NCBI GenBank assembly: GCA_027491735.1
Contig: JAOZGP010000036.1
Coordinates: 1-53,207 of the forward strand
DNA length: 53,207 nt
Source of the DNA: Thermoproteota archaeon
Lineage (GTDB): Archaea > Korarchaeota > Korarchaeia > Korarchaeales > Korarchaeaceae
Direction of reading: 5' to 3'
Under the pieces are notes generated by a model. That model did not search any database, was not told the DNA's origin, and worked only from the letters and a program-made list of their open reading frames with translations. Below, piece by piece: positions 4,163 through 23,608 of this stretch (the stretch's first letter is position 1; each line of letters opens with the position of its first letter). Position numbers and translations under genes: made by a program.

Positions 4163-4509
4163 CCTAGATCCTCCATAGTCGCCCAGGATTTGTCTAGATA
4201 TCCTCTCTCGATGAGCCACTGAACTTGAGCTCTGTTATACTTAACAACGATATCTCCCCTATCCCTCTTGAATGGCCAAATCGAAACCAGGACGATATCT
4301 CCATTCTTAAGCCAAGATCTTCTTCCTCTGAGCTTGCCTCTCACTCTACAAACCCTTATCACTCCGTCGGAACACTCAACCCTGAAATGTCCCTTGCCTA
4401 AAGGCTCCAAAATTCTACCGAAAACCTCCAAATCCTCTTCTACTGGAAGAAGATCGTTCATTTCTTCGTCGAGAGATGACTCAGGGGCTTTTTTCTTTCC
4501 CTTTGGCAA
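4159..4509 (-). CDS. eif1A: Translation initiation factor aIF1A
   Basis: This OB-fold factor occupies the ribosomal A site during start selection. Its 116 residues comprise a basic N-terminus (MPKGKKK), an acidic stretch, and the S1-like OB core with VECSDGVIRVCRVRGKLRGRR and NGDIVLVSIWPF, followed by the family's RGDIVVKY segment. The length is normal. It lies 13 bases after aIF2-beta and overlaps RIO1 by four bases, forming a translation/ribosome-assembly operon on the minus strand. Confidence 0.96.
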   Translation of the reverse strand: MPKGKKKAPESSLDEEMNDLLPVEEDLEVFGRILEPLGKGHFRVECSDGVIRVCRVRGKLRGRRSWLKNGDIVLVSIWPFKRDRGDIVVKYNRAQVQWLIERGYLDKSWATMEDLG

Positions 4510-4522
4510 GATACGACCTCCC

Positions 4523-4948
4523 TTAGATCTTCTTTATGGGGGACTCAGCCCCGCAGGCCAGACACTTCAGGACCCAAATGCGGCCCCTCTTCTCTATCTT
4601 GGTATCTGGCCTTTTACAGATCGGACATATGACATATAAATTTATGAATTTCTCTATCCTCGACCTCACAAGGGACGGCTTGACGAGCGTTGTAAATATG
4701 AGCTTTGAACCATCTGAAGTGAGAGTATATGGGCTTCCAACCTCCTTGGACAGAAATCTAGCTAAATCCTTTGGATCTCTATTTAAAATGGAAACAAGCT
4801 CCTTGAAGCTGACTATATGCGTCTGTCTCCCCTCCACCCTTATGATAGGCTCCGGTGGATGAAATCTCTCACCTGAAAGCCTGACAACATCCTTTAGCTG
4901 CTTATATGCGTTATCTAGCATAGCTAAATATTCTTCCTTGGTGCTCAA
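4523..4948 (-). CDS. eif2B: Translation initiation factor aIF2 subunit beta
   Basis: This is the beta subunit of aIF2, which brings initiator tRNA to the small subunit. Its 141 residues show the family core (ERFHPPEP, KFINLYVICPIC) and a C-terminal zinc ribbon with cysteines near 108, 111, 129 and 132. The start is TTG at 4948. Its ribosome binding site GGGAGG lies inside the 3' arm of a perfect 11-bp inverted repeat immediately upstream, so translation may be gated by RNA folding (see the separate entry). The alpha and gamma subunits are not in the window. Confidence 0.95.
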   Translation of the reverse strand: MSTKEEYLAMLDNAYKQLKDVVRLSGERFHPPEPIIRVEGRQTHIVSFKELVSILNRDPKDLARFLSKEVGSPYTLTSDGSKLIFTTLVKPSLVRSRIEKFINLYVICPICKRPDTKIEKRGRIWVLKCLACGAESPIKKI

Positions 4949-8902: not shown

Positions 8903-10390
8903 AATGGGCCTTCGTGAAGCACTCACCTCGTTCAGTCTATCCACCGAAGTTTCGTGCGGCGCACTCAAAACCAGCGTCTTGTCAGTTCTAGCCTCCTCGA
9001 CGATGCACCTCATGGCCTCCACGAAGTTGTCCAGGTCGTAGGGACTTTCACACTCCGTAGGCTCTATCATCAGGGCTTCCTTGACTATCGGTGGGAAGTA
9101 CACCGTAGGCGCGTGAACGCCGTAGTCCAATAGCCTCTTGGCTACGTGTAGAGCTGAGACCCCATATTTATTTTTCAGCTCCTCTAAACTCACGACGAAC
9201 TCATGTTTGCAGGGTCTTTCCTTTCCAAACTTTAGCTTAATTCCCTCAATTTCCAAAAGCCTCTTCATAACGTAATTCGCATTGAGAACGGCTACTTCGG
9301 AGACCTCCCTGAGACCCTCTCCTCCAAGGATCTTCAGATAAGCCCACGCCTTGACGATCACTCCAAAGTTACCGTAGAACATTCTCACCCTTCCTATCGT
9401 CCTCTTGACGCTGTAATCCAGATAATATCCTCCCTCTGGCCTTTTGCGTACTACAGGAACTGGCAGATAATCCCTGAACTCGTCAACTACACCAACTGCT
9501 CCAGCCCCAGGGCCTCCACTCCCATGAGGGGCTGAGAAAGTTTTATGCAGATTTAGATGAGCGACATCTATCCTCATGTCGCTAAGGAGGACTCTCCCTA
9601 GAATCGCGTTGAGATTTGCTCCATCGTAGTAGACATATCCGCCAGCGCCGTGTACTATATCTGTAATTTCTAAGATATCCGTTTCAAAGAGACCTAGCGT
9701 GTTCGGGTTTGTTATCATCATGCCCGCCGTTTTCTCTCCCGCAGCTGCTCTCAAGGCATCGAGGTCTACAAGACCCTCCTCATTGGGCGGAATTCTGACG
9801 ACCTTAAAGCCAGCCATGGCAGCGCTGGCGAAATTGGATCCATGTGCCGACTCCGGTATCAGCACCTCATCCCTCCTCTCACCCAAGTCCCTTATTTTGG
9901 CTTTTATCATCAGAACACCTGTTAGCTCACCATGAGCTCCCGCCGCTGGCTGCAATGAGAAATGAGGAAGTCCAGTTATCTTAGAGAGCATCTCACCTAT
10001 CTCATAAATTATTTTAAGAGCGCCTTGAACGGTGTCCTCTGGCTGGTAGGGATGAATCCAAAGTACATGGGGATCCTTAGAGAGTCTTTCGTTTATCTTC
10101 GGGTTGTACTTCATTGTGCAGGATCCAAGCCAGTAGGGTCCACTATCCACTCCATAATTCATCTCCGCTAATCTAGAAAAGTGTCTGGAGACCTCAGATT
10201 CAGTTAAGCCTGGAAGATTGAGCTCTTTCCTGGTGTCAATCCTTGATAAGGCACTCTTGGCCTTACTGCGAATCTCCTCCTCAGTGTGAATTTTGTAGTA
10301 CCCCGGTCTTCCATTTGCCAACTCAAACACGGTGGGCTCAAGAACTCCCCCTTTATACGACCATCTAGCCTGTCGAAATCCCCTCATCAT
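8864..10390 (-). CDS. gcvPB: Glycine dehydrogenase (decarboxylating) subunit 2
   Basis: This is the PLP-binding half of the two-subunit P-protein of the glycine cleavage system, which decarboxylates glycine and passes aminomethyl to the lipoyl H-protein. The PLP lysine is in HLNLHKTFSAPHGSGGPG (Lys about 283). Earlier conserved segments include YGVDSGPYWLGSCTMKYNP and QPAAGAHGELTG. The length of 508 is typical. The start ATG overlaps the stop of gcvPA (10387-10390). The T, H and L proteins are not in this window. Confidence 0.96.
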   Translation of the reverse strand: MMRGFRQARWSYKGGVLEPTVFELANGRPGYYKIHTEEEIRSKAKSALSRIDTRKELNLPGLTESEVSRHFSRLAEMNYGVDSGPYWLGSCTMKYNPKINERLSKDPHVLWIHPYQPEDTVQGALKIIYEIGEMLSKITGLPHFSLQPAAGAHGELTGVLMIKAKIRDLGERRDEVLIPESAHGSNFASAAMAGFKVVRIPPNEEGLVDLDALRAAAGEKTAGMMITNPNTLGLFETDILEITDIVHGAGGYVYYDGANLNAILGRVLLSDMRIDVAHLNLHKTFSAPHGSGGPGAGAVGVVDEFRDYLPVPVVRKRPEGGYYLDYSVKRTIGRVRMFYGNFGVIVKAWAYLKILGGEGLREVSEVAVLNANYVMKRLLEIEGIKLKFGKERPCKHEFVVSLEELKNKYGVSALHVAKRLLDYGVHAPTVYFPPIVKEALMIEPTECESPYDLDNFVEAMRCIVEEARTDKTLVLSAPHETSVDRLNEVSASRRPILSWRMYKEKSDR

Positions 10391-11748
10391 GAAACCCCCC
10401 TCAAAGCATTAACCAACAGGTCTAAATCGTCTTTGTTGTGGATCTCTGTGGTACAAAACAGGGCTGAGTTCCCTAGCTCCTTGAACCTCCTTTCAAATCT
10501 GTTCAGGGGCAATCCGCCTATGATCCTCATGCGTCTGAGTTTTGAGTTCACAAGATCCCAGTCCAAAGGACTGCGCACCAAGAACTCCCTGAAGTGTACT
10601 TGATCGAAGATCGGGGACTCGAACTTATCCAGAGAATCTATTTCCTCGATCAGATATTGCGTGTTCCCTATGATTCTCATGCACACGTTTCTCAGCCCCT
10701 CAGCACCCATCAAGGAGAGGTAAACAGCCGCTCTTATCGCCATCAACGATTCGTTGGTTGTTATATTGGAGGTAGCTCTCTCCTGTCTTATGTGCTGCTC
10801 TCTCGTCTGGAGCGTCATTACATACCCTCTGACACCAGATCTGCTCCATGCCATGCCTATCAATCGACCAGGCATCTGCCTAACCAGACGAAGATCCCAC
10901 CTAGTAGCCATTATGCCCAAGGAAGGGCCCCCAAAGGAGGGATAGCCTCCTAGATGCTGTCCCTCTCCCACAGCTATGTCTGCTCCACACTCTCCTGGTG
11001 GCTTGAGTATGCCAAGGCTCAACGGATCCACTCCCATAACATACAAAGCGCCTTTAGAATGGGCTTTTTCACCAACGGCCTCGGCCTCCTCTTCAATCAC
11101 ACCAAAGAAGTTCGGATTCTCCAAGTATACCATAGCTGTGTCGCTGTTCGGATCTAGAGAATCTAAAAGAACAGTACCTCTACGCCTATCGAAACTGTAG
11201 GTTCGGATCCTGCCATCCGCCCCAAACAGGTAAGTCTTAAGAACTTCCATCCTTTCCGGGTGCATGTTCTCTGGAACCAGGATTTCTCTCCTTCTGGTCA
11301 CTCTCATGGCCATGAGGGCCGCTTCGGCCAAAGCAGTTGACCATTCGTAGTGAGAAGCGTTAACTACATCCATCTCCAAGAGCTCAGCCATGAGAGACTG
11401 GTATTCAAAAATCGCTTGGAGAGCCCCCTGGGAGATCTCCGTCTGATAAGGCGTGTATGAAGTGTAAAATTCCTGCTTAGATGAAATCTCATCGACCACG
11501 GCAGGTACATGGTGAAACCAGCACCCTCCTCCAAGAAAAAACTTCCATTCTCCTAAACAACAGTTTTCTGACATAATGCGCTTGAACGTTCTTTCTACCT
11601 CTATCTCGTCATGGGAGGGAAGATCCGGTGATTTACTTCTGATCAAAGATCGGGGAATGTCGGAAAATAATGGATCACTGTTCTCAAATCCTAAAAATCT
11701 CAACAATCTTCTCTTGATCGATATATATGAGTTCGGCACCCACCACAT
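10387..11748 (-). CDS. gcvPA: Glycine dehydrogenase (decarboxylating) subunit 1
   Basis: This is the partner subunit of the P-protein heterotetramer, with an aminotransferase fold but no PLP lysine. Conserved segments include LFSDIPRSL near the N-terminus, CWFHHVPAVVDEI, the segment around TSYTPYQTEISQGALQ, and VENPNFFGVIEEEAE in the middle. The frame is open to 11871, but homology begins at MWWVPNSYISIKRRLL, so ATG 11748 is chosen (453 residues). No ribosome binding site is visible. A TTTAAAA element about 30 bases upstream suggests leaderless transcription. Confidence 0.93.
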   Translation of the reverse strand: MWWVPNSYISIKRRLLRFLGFENSDPLFSDIPRSLIRSKSPDLPSHDEIEVERTFKRIMSENCCLGEWKFFLGGGCWFHHVPAVVDEISSKQEFYTSYTPYQTEISQGALQAIFEYQSLMAELLEMDVVNASHYEWSTALAEAALMAMRVTRRREILVPENMHPERMEVLKTYLFGADGRIRTYSFDRRRGTVLLDSLDPNSDTAMVYLENPNFFGVIEEEAEAVGEKAHSKGALYVMGVDPLSLGILKPPGECGADIAVGEGQHLGGYPSFGGPSLGIMATRWDLRLVRQMPGRLIGMAWSRSGVRGYVMTLQTREQHIRQERATSNITTNESLMAIRAAVYLSLMGAEGLRNVCMRIIGNTQYLIEEIDSLDKFESPIFDQVHFREFLVRSPLDWDLVNSKLRRMRIIGGLPLNRFERRFKELGNSALFCTTEIHNKDDLDLLVNALRGVS

Positions 11749-11916
11749 AGCGGTCGTCAGAACCAGTACGGGGAAAATTTTAAAGGAGGTCCTTGTGAAC
11801 CTCCAAGTTGAGCTTCTCGATGAAGTCAACGGCTGAACTTTACTGGACCAGAAGCACATCTCTTTGATCATAAACCATGTTCTTTCTAGAACTGTTGCCG
11901 CTCTTATATGTCAAGG

Positions 11917-11937
11917 AAAAGTTTTCAGAAAACTTTT
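11917..11937. repeat. Perfect inverted repeat AAAAGTTTT/AAAACTTTT
   Basis: AAAAGTTTT, a three-base spacer CAG, then AAAACTTTT make a perfect 9-bp stem in the divergent promoter region between gcvPA and the RHH-ftsZ2 operon. It could be an operator for a dimeric regulator or a transcript hairpin. Being AT-rich, it would be a weak RNA stem at high temperature, which favours the operator reading. Confidence 0.5.
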
Positions 11938-12119
11938 TCTGAAAGATCCAGCGGTTAACCCTCTAAGAGACCCATCTCCATCGTATTTTAACTCTCAATA
12001 GTTAAAAACACCTATATATAGAAATCAGTGGAAGTAGGAATCCCATAAATCCTCCCAGCAACTCACTCTGGTAACGGCGGAATCAAAAGGGATAAATACG
12101 CCTTCTGGGTCTCTTTTTT

Positions 12120-12139
12120 AAGAAACTTTAAGAAACTGG
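12120..12139. repeat. Tandem AAGAAACT repeat, 10-base period
   Basis: AAGAAACTTT is followed directly by AAGAAACTGG. Two identical octamers one helical turn apart sit just upstream of the RHH gene. RHH proteins commonly bind short repeats with this kind of spacing, so this is a candidate autoregulatory operator. That is inference. Confidence 0.45.
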
Positions 12140-12168
12140 GAATATTAATAAAAATGGAGGTGTTCGGT

Positions 12169-12354
12169 GTGGTGATCGTATCCCTGCACATCCCCTCCCA
12201 ACTTGCTGAGAAGCTTGACAGAGTGGTAAGGAAGGGAGGGTATACGAGTAAGAGTGAAGCTATAAGAGAAGCAATTCGTCTGCTGCTCAGGGAATATGAG
12301 AAAAATGTGGCTCTTTTACATGAGGAGGAGTTTACAGGGGAGGTGGCAAGATGA
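12169..12354 (+). CDS. Ribbon-helix-helix regulator upstream of ftsZ2 (CdrS-like)
   Basis: A small CopG/MetJ-type RHH DNA-binding protein: a beta strand (VSLHIP), then two helices containing LAEKLDRVVRKGGYTSKSEAIREAIR and an acidic/basic tail. The frame is open from ATG 12154, but GGAGGTG at 12156-12162 is a good ribosome binding site for GTG 12169 or 12172, which places the beta strand at the N-terminus as in the family. Its stop overlaps the ATG of ftsZ2 (ATGA), so the two are co-translated. In haloarchaea an RHH protein, CdrS, is encoded beside ftsZ2 and regulates division; the layout here suggests the same role. Confidence 0.87.
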   Translation: MVIVSLHIPSQLAEKLDRVVRKGGYTSKSEAIREAIRLLLREYEKNVALLHEEEFTGEVAR

Positions 12355-13613
12355 GTGGAGCATTTGACTTGTTGAGAGCCAAGAAGAACAAGGGAGAAGA
12401 ACTTCTCGATATTTTAAAGGGGATGTCCAATCAGGACAACGGTGGTGAGCATCATGATGAGGACGACGTGATAAGGAGCGATATATACTCCTCTGTGGAT
12501 GAGACAAGATATGACCTCTATCATCCAATTGACCTTGTGGACGATAGCGCTAACATAGTTATCGTTGGAGTGGGCGGTGCCGGATGCAATATGGTGAACA
12601 CCCTCCACGAACTGGGTGTTGTGGGGGCCAGACTCATAGCTGTAAACACCGATGAAAAACACCTCAAGAAAATACATGCTGATAAGAAGATCCTCATAGG
12701 GAAGTCCATAACTAAAGGCAACGGCGCTGGCGGCTCTCCTGAGCTAGGAAGAGCTTGTGCTGAGACCGACGCTTCCCTCATAGCTGAAGTTCTTGGAAAC
12801 AATCCAGAACTTGTGTTCATAGCTGCTGGAATGGGGGGAGGAACTGGAACCGGAGCGGCTCCTGTGATCGCAAAGATATCCAGCGACAAGGGAGCTAAGG
12901 TGATGGCCGTTGTCACCCTTCCGTTTAAGAACGAGGGGAGGCTTAAAATGAAGATAGCCAAGGACGGGATAAAGCATTTGAGGAAATACGCTCATTCTGT
13001 GGTCTTGATCTCCAACGAAAAGCTCCTAAACCTGGCTCGTGATAAGGACCTCAGGGAGGCCTTCAAAGTTGGAGACTGTACGCTGGCAATTATGGTCAAA
13101 GGAATAGCTGAGATCATAAACAAGAGGGCACTCATGAATGTCGATCTTCAAGATGTCAAGAACATCATGGCCTTTGGAGGAGTTTCGGCTGTTGGGGTGG
13201 GGGAGTCCAACGGTCCCAGGAACAGAGCTATAGAGGCCGTCAAGATGGCTCTCGAGAACCAGCTCATAGATGTCAATCCCGAAGGAGCTAGAGGGGCTCT
13301 GATAGTAGTGACCGGCGGGCCCAACATGAAGCTGGCGGAGATAGATGAGATAGCAAGATACGTCACGCAAAACATGGATCCTGATGCATTGATAAAGATA
13401 GGCGCCGATGTAGATGAGAACTTCGGCGATAAAATAAGGGTTATTCTTCTGCTCTCGGGGATAAGGTCTCAGTACATACTACCAGGAGAATCGGGACCAA
13501 GACCAAAGGAAGTTCTCTCAGCGACGCCTTTCTCACCTCCCATCTCCAGGTCAGACGACGCTCTCGAGATGGTAGAAGAAATTCTCGGAAGACCTTACGT
13601 CGTTAGGCTGTGA
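12351..13613 (+). CDS. ftsZ2: Cell division GTPase FtsZ (FtsZ2-type by context)
   Basis: This tubulin-fold GTPase polymerises into the division ring. Motifs: VGVGGAGCNMV (72-82), the signature GMGGGTGTGAAP (160-171), and the T7 synergy loop NVDLQD (263-268). A 65-residue, mostly charged N-terminal extension (GGEHHDEDDV) precedes the GTPase core. After the core, the tail ends LEMVEEILGRPYVVRL, a possible partner-binding peptide. Assignment as FtsZ2 rests on the upstream RHH gene and on the other copy having the ftsZ1-secE context; a tree would be needed to confirm. It is convergent with the NAD-kinase gene four bases away. Confidence 0.95.
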   Translation: MSGAFDLLRAKKNKGEELLDILKGMSNQDNGGEHHDEDDVIRSDIYSSVDETRYDLYHPIDLVDDSANIVIVGVGGAGCNMVNTLHELGVVGARLIAVNTDEKHLKKIHADKKILIGKSITKGNGAGGSPELGRACAETDASLIAEVLGNNPELVFIAAGMGGGTGTGAAPVIAKISSDKGAKVMAVVTLPFKNEGRLKMKIAKDGIKHLRKYAHSVVLISNEKLLNLARDKDLREAFKVGDCTLAIMVKGIAEIINKRALMNVDLQDVKNIMAFGGVSAVGVGESNGPRNRAIEAVKMALENQLIDVNPEGARGALIVVTGGPNMKLAEIDEIARYVTQNMDPDALIKIGADVDENFGDKIRVILLLSGIRSQYILPGESGPRPKEVLSATPFSPPISRSDDALEMVEEILGRPYVVRL

Positions 13614-19987: not shown

Positions 19988-21169
19988 CTATAGGCTGTCT
20001 AAACCCAGCTCCTCAGGTGGGATTCTTTCAGGAGGGGTTTCCCTTCTTAAAGGTTTCCTCGCACCAGGAGCGATGGCCTTCTTAGCAGCTTCTTCCTTCG
20101 GAAGTTCTCCCTTTATGACAGCCTCCACAGTCTTAGATCTGACGCCAACGACTGCTATCAGCACCTGAACTAATCCTTTAAGTGACTCATCTATCCTAGC
20201 ACCCCAGAGGACGTTAGCATCTTGATCCAGAGCTCCTACCACAGTTTCCACAACCTGCTCCATCTCCTCGAGAGAGAAGTCCGGCCCACATGTTATGTTT
20301 ATTATGGCTGCCTTGCCGCCCGATATGTCTACGTCCAGCAATGGGTTGCTGAGGGCATCCTCAACGGCTTCTATGGCCCTGTTATCGCTATCACTCTCAC
20401 CGAAGAGAAGCGCAGCTACCCCTCCTCCTTCGACCACAGCGCGGAAGTCGGCTAGATCAACGTTGATTAATCCAGGCTTTGTGATGAGCTCCACTATCCC
20501 CTTAACTGCGCGGGCCATAATCTCGTCGCATATCATGAAGGCCTGGTAGAGTGGGAGATCTCGAGCTATATCAAGTATTCTATCATTAGCAATTATTATT
20601 ATTGTGTCAGTTACTTTTATCAACCTCTCAAGCCCCTGATAGGCGAGCTCCCTCTTCCTTCTTCCTTCCACCGAGAAGGGCAGAGTAACTATGGAGATAA
20701 CTATCGCTCCCAGATGTTTAGCTATCTCAGCGATGACAGGTGCTGCACCAGTCCCAGTTCCTCCACCAAGGCCTGCCATGAGGAAGAGTATATCCGCTCC
20801 GGCGAGCACATCCTTTATGACATCAGCACTCTCTCTGGCAGCCTCTTCCCCTATTCTGGGGTCTCCTCCAGCACCAGTTCCTCCACATAGCTCAGGACCT
20901 AGCAGTATCTTTCTGTCAGCAGCGGTGATCAGCAAGTGTGCTGCATCCGTGTTGGCAGCTATGGTCTCAGCACCTCCTATCTTCAGAGCGTTAAGTCTGG
21001 TGATCGTGTTGCTGCCAGCTCCACCGACACCCATTATAACAATCCTAACTTTCCCTCTTTCCAGGATTTTCTGAATTTCTTGATCCTCAGGGGCAACTTT
21101 TTGAGGTACCTCATAATCCTCCATCTTGGAAGCGCGTGCTGAAACCCTGGCTATCATGGACTTCAACAA
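19988..21169 (-). CDS. ftsZ1: Cell division GTPase FtsZ (FtsZ1-type by context)
   Basis: The second FtsZ of the window, with the GTP-binding segment MGVGGAGSNTI (46-56) and signature GLGGGTGTGAAP (133-144), followed by the T7 loop NVDLADF. The C-terminal linker is short and proline/arginine-rich and ends PPEELGLDSL, a hydrophobic terminal peptide. It is directly upstream of secE-spt5, the classic ftsZ1 position in Euryarchaeota. The likely start is TTG 21169, with GGTGAT five bases upstream; ATG 21157 is the alternative. Its promoter appears to be the symmetrical TTTATATATAA shared with tRNA-Ala. Confidence 0.95.
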   Translation of the reverse strand: MLKSMIARVSARASKMEDYEVPQKVAPEDQEIQKILERGKVRIVIMGVGGAGSNTITRLNALKIGGAETIAANTDAAHLLITAADRKILLGPELCGGTGAGGDPRIGEEAARESADVIKDVLAGADILFLMAGLGGGTGTGAAPVIAEIAKHLGAIVISIVTLPFSVEGRRKRELAYQGLERLIKVTDTIIIIANDRILDIARDLPLYQAFMICDEIMARAVKGIVELITKPGLINVDLADFRAVVEGGGVAALLFGESDSDNRAIEAVEDALSNPLLDVDISGGKAAIINITCGPDFSLEEMEQVVETVVGALDQDANVLWGARIDESLKGLVQVLIAVVGVRSKTVEAVIKGELPKEEAAKKAIAPGARKPLRRETPPERIPPEELGLDSL

Positions 21170-23256: not shown

Positions 23257-23608
23257 GAGAAAGAATCTCATGAAACAGAAGAGAATAGCCAAAGATAGGA
23301 TAATCCTCCTCCTTCGAATGGCCGACGACATCGTTAGGGAGGATCCACATCTGGCGGAAAGATATGGGGACATAGCGAGGAGGTTATCCCTCCGTACAAG
23401 AGTTAGACTTCCTGAGGAATACTCGTGGAGGTACTGCAAGCGCTGTAAGAAACTCATGTTCCCAGGAGTGAATGCAGTGATCAGGTCGAGATCTAGAAGA
23501 TATCCCCACATGGTCATAAAATGTCTGAGATGTGGTTATATAAATAGAAGACCCTACATCAGAGAAAAATCACTTAAAAAGAGCGTTCAGAAACCGTCCC
23601 GGTTGTGA
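23249..23608 (+). CDS. rnp4: RNase P protein component 4 (Rpr2/Rpp21-type)
   Basis: A 119-residue zinc-ribbon protein that works with Rnp1 on the specificity domain of RNase P RNA. The basic N-terminal helices (PRRKNLMKQKRIAKDRI) are followed by YCKRCKKLMFPG and MVIKCLRCGYINRRPYI, the two CxxC knuckles. The frame is open upstream, but ATG 23249 overlaps the Nep1 stop and places the conserved start correctly. The RNA partner is encoded at 33003-33296. Confidence 0.9.
   Translation: MPRRKNLMKQKRIAKDRIILLLRMADDIVREDPHLAERYGDIARRLSLRTRVRLPEEYSWRYCKRCKKLMFPGVNAVIRSRSRRYPHMVIKCLRCGYINRRPYIREKSLKKSVQKPSRL

Follow-up and report, generated by a model that had tools for sequence, protein, structure and literature searches.

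A candidate operator at the cdrS-ftsZ2 promoter of a korarchaeal genome

The rRNA genes (16S and 23S) and the RNase P RNA of the stretch of DNA analysed here (53,207 nucleotides, hereafter the window) show it to be archaeal. It is contig 31 of a genome of 1.36 Mb (88% complete), and the archaeon carrying it, almost certainly a member of Korarchaeia, is probably heat-loving. The locus under study consists of ftsZ2, a small gene coding for an RHH protein located immediately 5' of it on the same strand, and the divergent neighbour gcvPA (Table 1), a layout that was also found in the relatives examined (e.g. the G009 locus). The longest frame of the RHH gene begins at an ATG (12154-12354, 66 aa), and GTG 12169 is the start that fits both the Shine-Dalgarno sequence GGAGGTG and the N-termini of the relatives, giving a protein of 61 aa. 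Its TGA stop codon (12352-12354) overlaps the ATG of ftsZ2 (12351) and the product matches Pfam RHH_1 (E=4e-11); the 61-residue RHH protein overlapping the ftsZ2 start, described in the initial annotation of this DNA, is real. The other FtsZ gene of the window, ftsZ1, adjoins a cluster that reads as secE, spt5 and the L11/L1/L10 genes (names from sequence reading). One extra tubulin-family gene is present in the same genome (G000:C28:26269-26784), and several FtsZ-like genes in tandem arrays, besides ftsZ1 and ftsZ2, were seen in G009 (G009:C1:900636-906136, L153) and also in G005, G010, G011, G022 and G008.

Table 1. Coordinates of the genes and of the observed or predicted sites in the window.
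Feature	Position	Strand	Basis or remark
gcvPA, divergent neighbour	10387..11871	-	NF001696, 533 bits
Inverted repeat of the initial annotation, probably part of the gcvPA promoter	11917..11937		stops 8 nt short of minus-strand TATAAG (11908-11903)
Proposed operator TTTAACT-N6-AGTTAAA, perfect arms reaching 11986-12007	11987..12006		conserved position, weight-matrix rank, genome uniqueness
TATA box TATATATA of the cdrS-ftsZ2 promoter, BRE at 12007-12012	12013..12020	+	sequence and conserved spacing
Tandem AAGAAACT of the initial annotation, in the predicted 5' untranslated region	12120..12137	+	not conserved
Shine-Dalgarno GGAGGTG preceding the GTG start of the RHH gene	12156..12162	+	direct reading
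cdrS-like RHH regulator gene	12169..12354	+	61 aa, GTG start, stop overlapping ftsZ2 ATG
ftsZ2, 420 aa	12351..13613	+	TIGR00065, 331 bits, above cut-off
ftsZ1, second FtsZ	19988..21169	-	TIGR00065, 377 bits; upstream region without operator copy

In haloarchaea, CdrS controls division and ftsZ2 (PMC7439475; Liao 2021, PMC8406309), and our locus resembles theirs: CdrS too is small (61 aa in H. volcanii), consists of a single RHH domain and has its gene immediately 5' of ftsZ2. In the broad archaeal sense of a CdrS-FtsZ2 module, the 61-aa protein is the small single-domain RHH protein that such a module includes. The profile comparison with CdrS that had been suggested for it gave a divided answer. 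The haloarchaeal CdrS equivalog NF058555 is the top NCBIfam match, with 34.6 bits, but this is below the haloarchaeal cut-off of 100 and leaves the protein outside the family as defined there; in Thermococcus-like and methanogen-like archaea, too, the RHH proteins linked to FtsZ2 fall below it. Within its own genome the protein is the best NF058555 match (4.7e-8, against 5.0e-4 for the runner-up), and in the alignment it is ~30% identical to CdrS proteins from haloarchaea. The AlphaFold model (mean pLDDT 85) has a ribbon at residues 2-8 and helices at 10-23 and 28-55.

In a different reading of these data, the RHH gene codes for an orphan antitoxin or a NikR-like protein and lies beside ftsZ2 by chance. 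Both fold and sequence resemble the NikR and ParD/VapB domains. The best PDB sequence match is 2bj1 (E 1.5e-6), which shares the RHH domain of NikR, and in the profile search the NikR model scores within ~1 bit of the CdrS model. The RHH tree, built on 60 columns, left the korarchaeal and euryarchaeal RHH proteins ungrouped, and their union in one clade was not rejected (AU p = 0.12); profile and tree do not clearly set the protein apart from NikR-like proteins. Nevertheless, with 61 aa, of which only residues 7-50 match the NikR models, in their N-terminal portion, it lacks the C-terminal nickel-binding domain, and its genomic setting is not that of NikR. A place among unrelated antitoxins, named in the initial annotation as the outcome that would undo its proposal, does not fit either, because no toxin gene adjoins the RHH gene (its neighbours are ftsZ2 and gcvPA, whereas a type II ParD/VapB antitoxin has an adjacent toxin gene) and because the linkage to ftsZ2 holds in every family member that was read, and extends to two other archaeal groups. 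A chance neighbour of this kind thus appears extremely improbable. Another small archaeal RHH protein, aCcr1 of Sulfolobales, is a repressor controlling the division gene cdvA (PMC7617429). Against its family, NF053762, our protein scores 28.9 bits (cut-off 60) and falls outside; aCcr1 acts in ESCRT-type division, and our RHH gene sits beside ftsZ2.

The linked FtsZ is FtsZ2 and not FtsZ1, as in the haloarchaeal module. In the FtsZ tree, FtsZ1 split from all the CdrS-linked FtsZ (support 99/95), and the FtsZ2 of the window grouped with other CdrS-linked korarchaeal FtsZ2 (100/99). The RHH gene was found directly before ftsZ2 in every family genome whose ftsZ2 locus was read. Genera g2 (L148, L149) and g3 (L023, L025) keep the pair with much diverged RHH proteins. 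The same order appears in the Thermococcus-like family (immediately 5' of ftsZ2 in 21/21 genomes) and in the haloarchaeal, methanogen-like and Archaeoglobus-like genomes with a complete locus (these group names were inferred from sequence). The claim that an RHH regulator is coupled here to ftsZ2, in the arrangement of haloarchaeal CdrS and far from haloarchaea, is supported, and the linked FtsZ falls in the FtsZ2 part of the tree. The arrangement itself is not new, because its wide spread has already been published: cdrS-ftsZ2 occurs in all archaeal clades but DPANN, and Korarchaeota were among those searched (Darnell 2020, PMC7439475). Two loci deserve separate mention. A contig labelled Proteobacteria (L200, JAJPHT010000022.1) codes for an archaeal-type FtsZ2 beside a CdrS-like protein and is probably a mis-binned MAG contig, and in L199 (reverse strand, frame 4168-4530) two RHH domains lie within a single open frame.

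Two repeats upstream of the RHH gene had been proposed in the initial annotation as its operators, a perfect 9-bp inverted repeat and a tandem AAGAAACT at one-turn spacing. Both are present. The inverted repeat reads AAAAGTTTTC-A-GAAAACTTTT and its arms are slightly longer than described, 10 bp, while the AAGAAACT copies start at 12120 and 12130, 10 bp apart, and a third lies at 23447 of the window. RHH operators built as tandem repeats at one-turn spacing are known, which counts in favour of the AAGAAACT pair. However, neither repeat is kept in the relatives. The AAGAAACT pair, whose conservation upstream of ftsZ2 had been offered as a check, is missing in all 19 relatives examined, and it sits past the likely promoter, some 75-95 nt 3' of where transcription is predicted to start. 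The inverted repeat lies against the TATA box of gcvPA and points to that gene; it is notable rather than exceptional, since the 53-kb window has five places with perfect arms of at least 10 bp and a spacer of at most 12 bp. Both candidates were rejected, and a role of either as RHH operator looks very unlikely. The initial annotation is therefore partly supported, right on the module and wrong on the operators. It had named a lack of conservation of the repeats, together with a lack of binding, as refuting its proposal; its own repeats are not conserved, but a second perfect palindrome that it omitted, lying between them (11986-12007), is.

This palindrome ends (at 12006, taking TTTAACT-N6-AGTTAAA as the site) exactly 6 nt ahead of the TATA box, from which transcription of cdrS-ftsZ2 would start near 12040-12045. 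In genus g4 the matching sequence, TGTnACT-N6-AGTnACA, is found at exactly the same 6-nt distance ahead of the TATA box in 15/16 relatives, with a weaker third half-box a further 13 bp upstream. The genome-wide scans, done by pattern search, retrieved the strict g4 form ~once per relative genome, almost always at the cdrS-ftsZ2 promoter, and gave a single match to WTWAACT-N6-AGTTWAW in the 1.36-Mb genome of the window. A weight matrix derived from the relatives' sites only ranked 11987-12006 first of the ~106,000 strand positions in the window. Among the 372 TATA words of the window, that of cdrS-ftsZ2 is the only one preceded by such a site at a distance of 6 nt, and in the control loci none was (0/1222 TATA words). 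As for a wider regulon, no site was found upstream of 23 ftsZ1 orthologues or in 24 sepF loci. The conservation has its limits within the family, as genera g2, g3 and g5 are without the palindrome at the cdrS-ftsZ2 promoter, G017 has it only as a shifted variant, and G002, the other genome of the window's GTDB genus with this locus, has an I-S-H RHH protein (see below) but no such palindrome.

Comparable sites, with other sequences, were found at the cdrS promoter of other archaea. In the haloarchaea GTAAGAC-N4/5-GTCTTAC occurs exactly once per genome in 6/6 genomes (G093, G086, G078, G058, G068 and G048; L158-L163), at the cdrS promoter only, and it is a candidate CdrL (or CdrS) operator. At this promoter TGTCnGACA boxes are present in the methanogen-like and Archaeoglobus-like genomes, mostly 3' of the TATA box and in many cases separated by 11 or 22 bp, and the GTCnGAC pair is nearly unique in their genomes. 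In most members of the Thermococcus-like family, where the promoter region only was scanned, paired ATATTA/TAATAT boxes precede a conserved BRE/TATA by ~28 bp. No such cdrS-promoter sequence came up in term searches of PMC7439475 and PMC8406309. The DNA-facing positions 3-5-7 of the RHH ribbon are R/K-S/T-R in Halobacteriota, V/I-S-H in g4 and the window, and I-S-Q in the Thermococcus-like family, and they differ in step with the operator sequence across lineages. The window and the haloarchaea share a palindromic, genome-unique site at this promoter but differ in its sequence, in its location (upstream of the TATA box here, downstream in haloarchaea) and in the ribbon (I-S-H here, R-T-R there); moreover, no CdrL is known here.

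The single occurrence of the palindrome in this genome and its presence in relatives suggest that the RHH protein controls its own operon. Our preferred interpretation, with a probability of about 0.62, is that a CdrS-type RHH protein and FtsZ2 form an operon which the RHH protein would autoregulate through the predicted operator TTTAACT-N6-AGTTAAA. Both proteins would be made from one message, with overlapping stop and start codons. An RHH dimer or tetramer would bind the site, which directly adjoins the BRE/TATA of the RHH gene's own promoter, and once bound might either block the loading of TFB/TBP, i.e. negative feedback (slightly preferred), or aid it. The cdrS product would in this way set the level of its own operon, hence the dosage of FtsZ2, and might have an effect on division timing. 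The circuit looks dedicated because this genome has no second copy of the palindrome. The absence of the palindrome from G002 and from g2, g3 and g5, its shifted form in G017, and the poor separation of the RHH protein from NikR-like proteins by profile and tree count against this interpretation.

The binder of this unique site may, however, be another protein, because the ChIP of H. volcanii CdrS omits the cdrS promoter and CdrL binds it in H. salinarum. The palindrome would then be read by another transcription factor, an analogue of CdrL, and the RHH protein would be a wider regulator of division and metabolism acting elsewhere in the genome, as in Haloferax. CdrL of H. salinarum binds solely upstream of cdrS-ftsZ2 (PMC7439475), none of the 18 CdrS ChIP sites of H. 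volcanii is its own cdrS promoter (PMC8406309), and the haloarchaeal palindrome, also unique per genome, fits CdrL better than CdrS. On the other side, CdrL is reported as confined to Halobacteria (PMC7439475), the further RHH genes present in the genome of the window are not linked to the cdrS-ftsZ2 locus, and the operators vary together with the ribbon residues of CdrS. On balance we consider a second binder rather unlikely, and autoregulation by the RHH protein remains the interpretation that we favour. Its extension to the other groups is more tentative, and we put it somewhat short of even odds: a dedicated operator at the cdrS-ftsZ2 promoter of Korarchaeia, Halobacteriota and the Thermococcus-like family (near-unique where tested), changed together with the ribbon of the linked RHH protein, might reflect a self-contained switch of FtsZ2 dosage, autoregulated and retained from an early ancestor of archaea, with its DNA code rewritten in each lineage.

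These sites bear on the question of how the quantity of FtsZ2 and its timing are set in archaea that divide by FtsZ. With the pairing of the two genes already known across archaea, the new elements are the candidate operator and the fact that it is nearly unique in the genome. The window extends the known cases to a lineage distant from haloarchaea and separates one credible operator candidate from two look-alikes. A named site of 20 bp, present once per genome at the promoter of a division operon, is amenable to a direct binding and mutation test, and its haloarchaeal counterpart, GTAAGAC-N4/5-GTCTTAC, is already accessible to mutation in Haloferax volcanii or Halobacterium salinarum.

The gcvPA-cdrS intergenic region also contains other sequences. 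The motif [CG]AGT[GT]GAAA, absent from this region in the window, is kept in that of most relatives, ~270-400 bp before cdrS (L005, L008-L013, L015-L021, L023). In genus g2 the gap carries an inverted repeat, TGAAACTTTC-N4-GAAAGTTTCA, near 1334 in L148 and near 1320 in L149, the left arm of which is incompletely kept between the two species.
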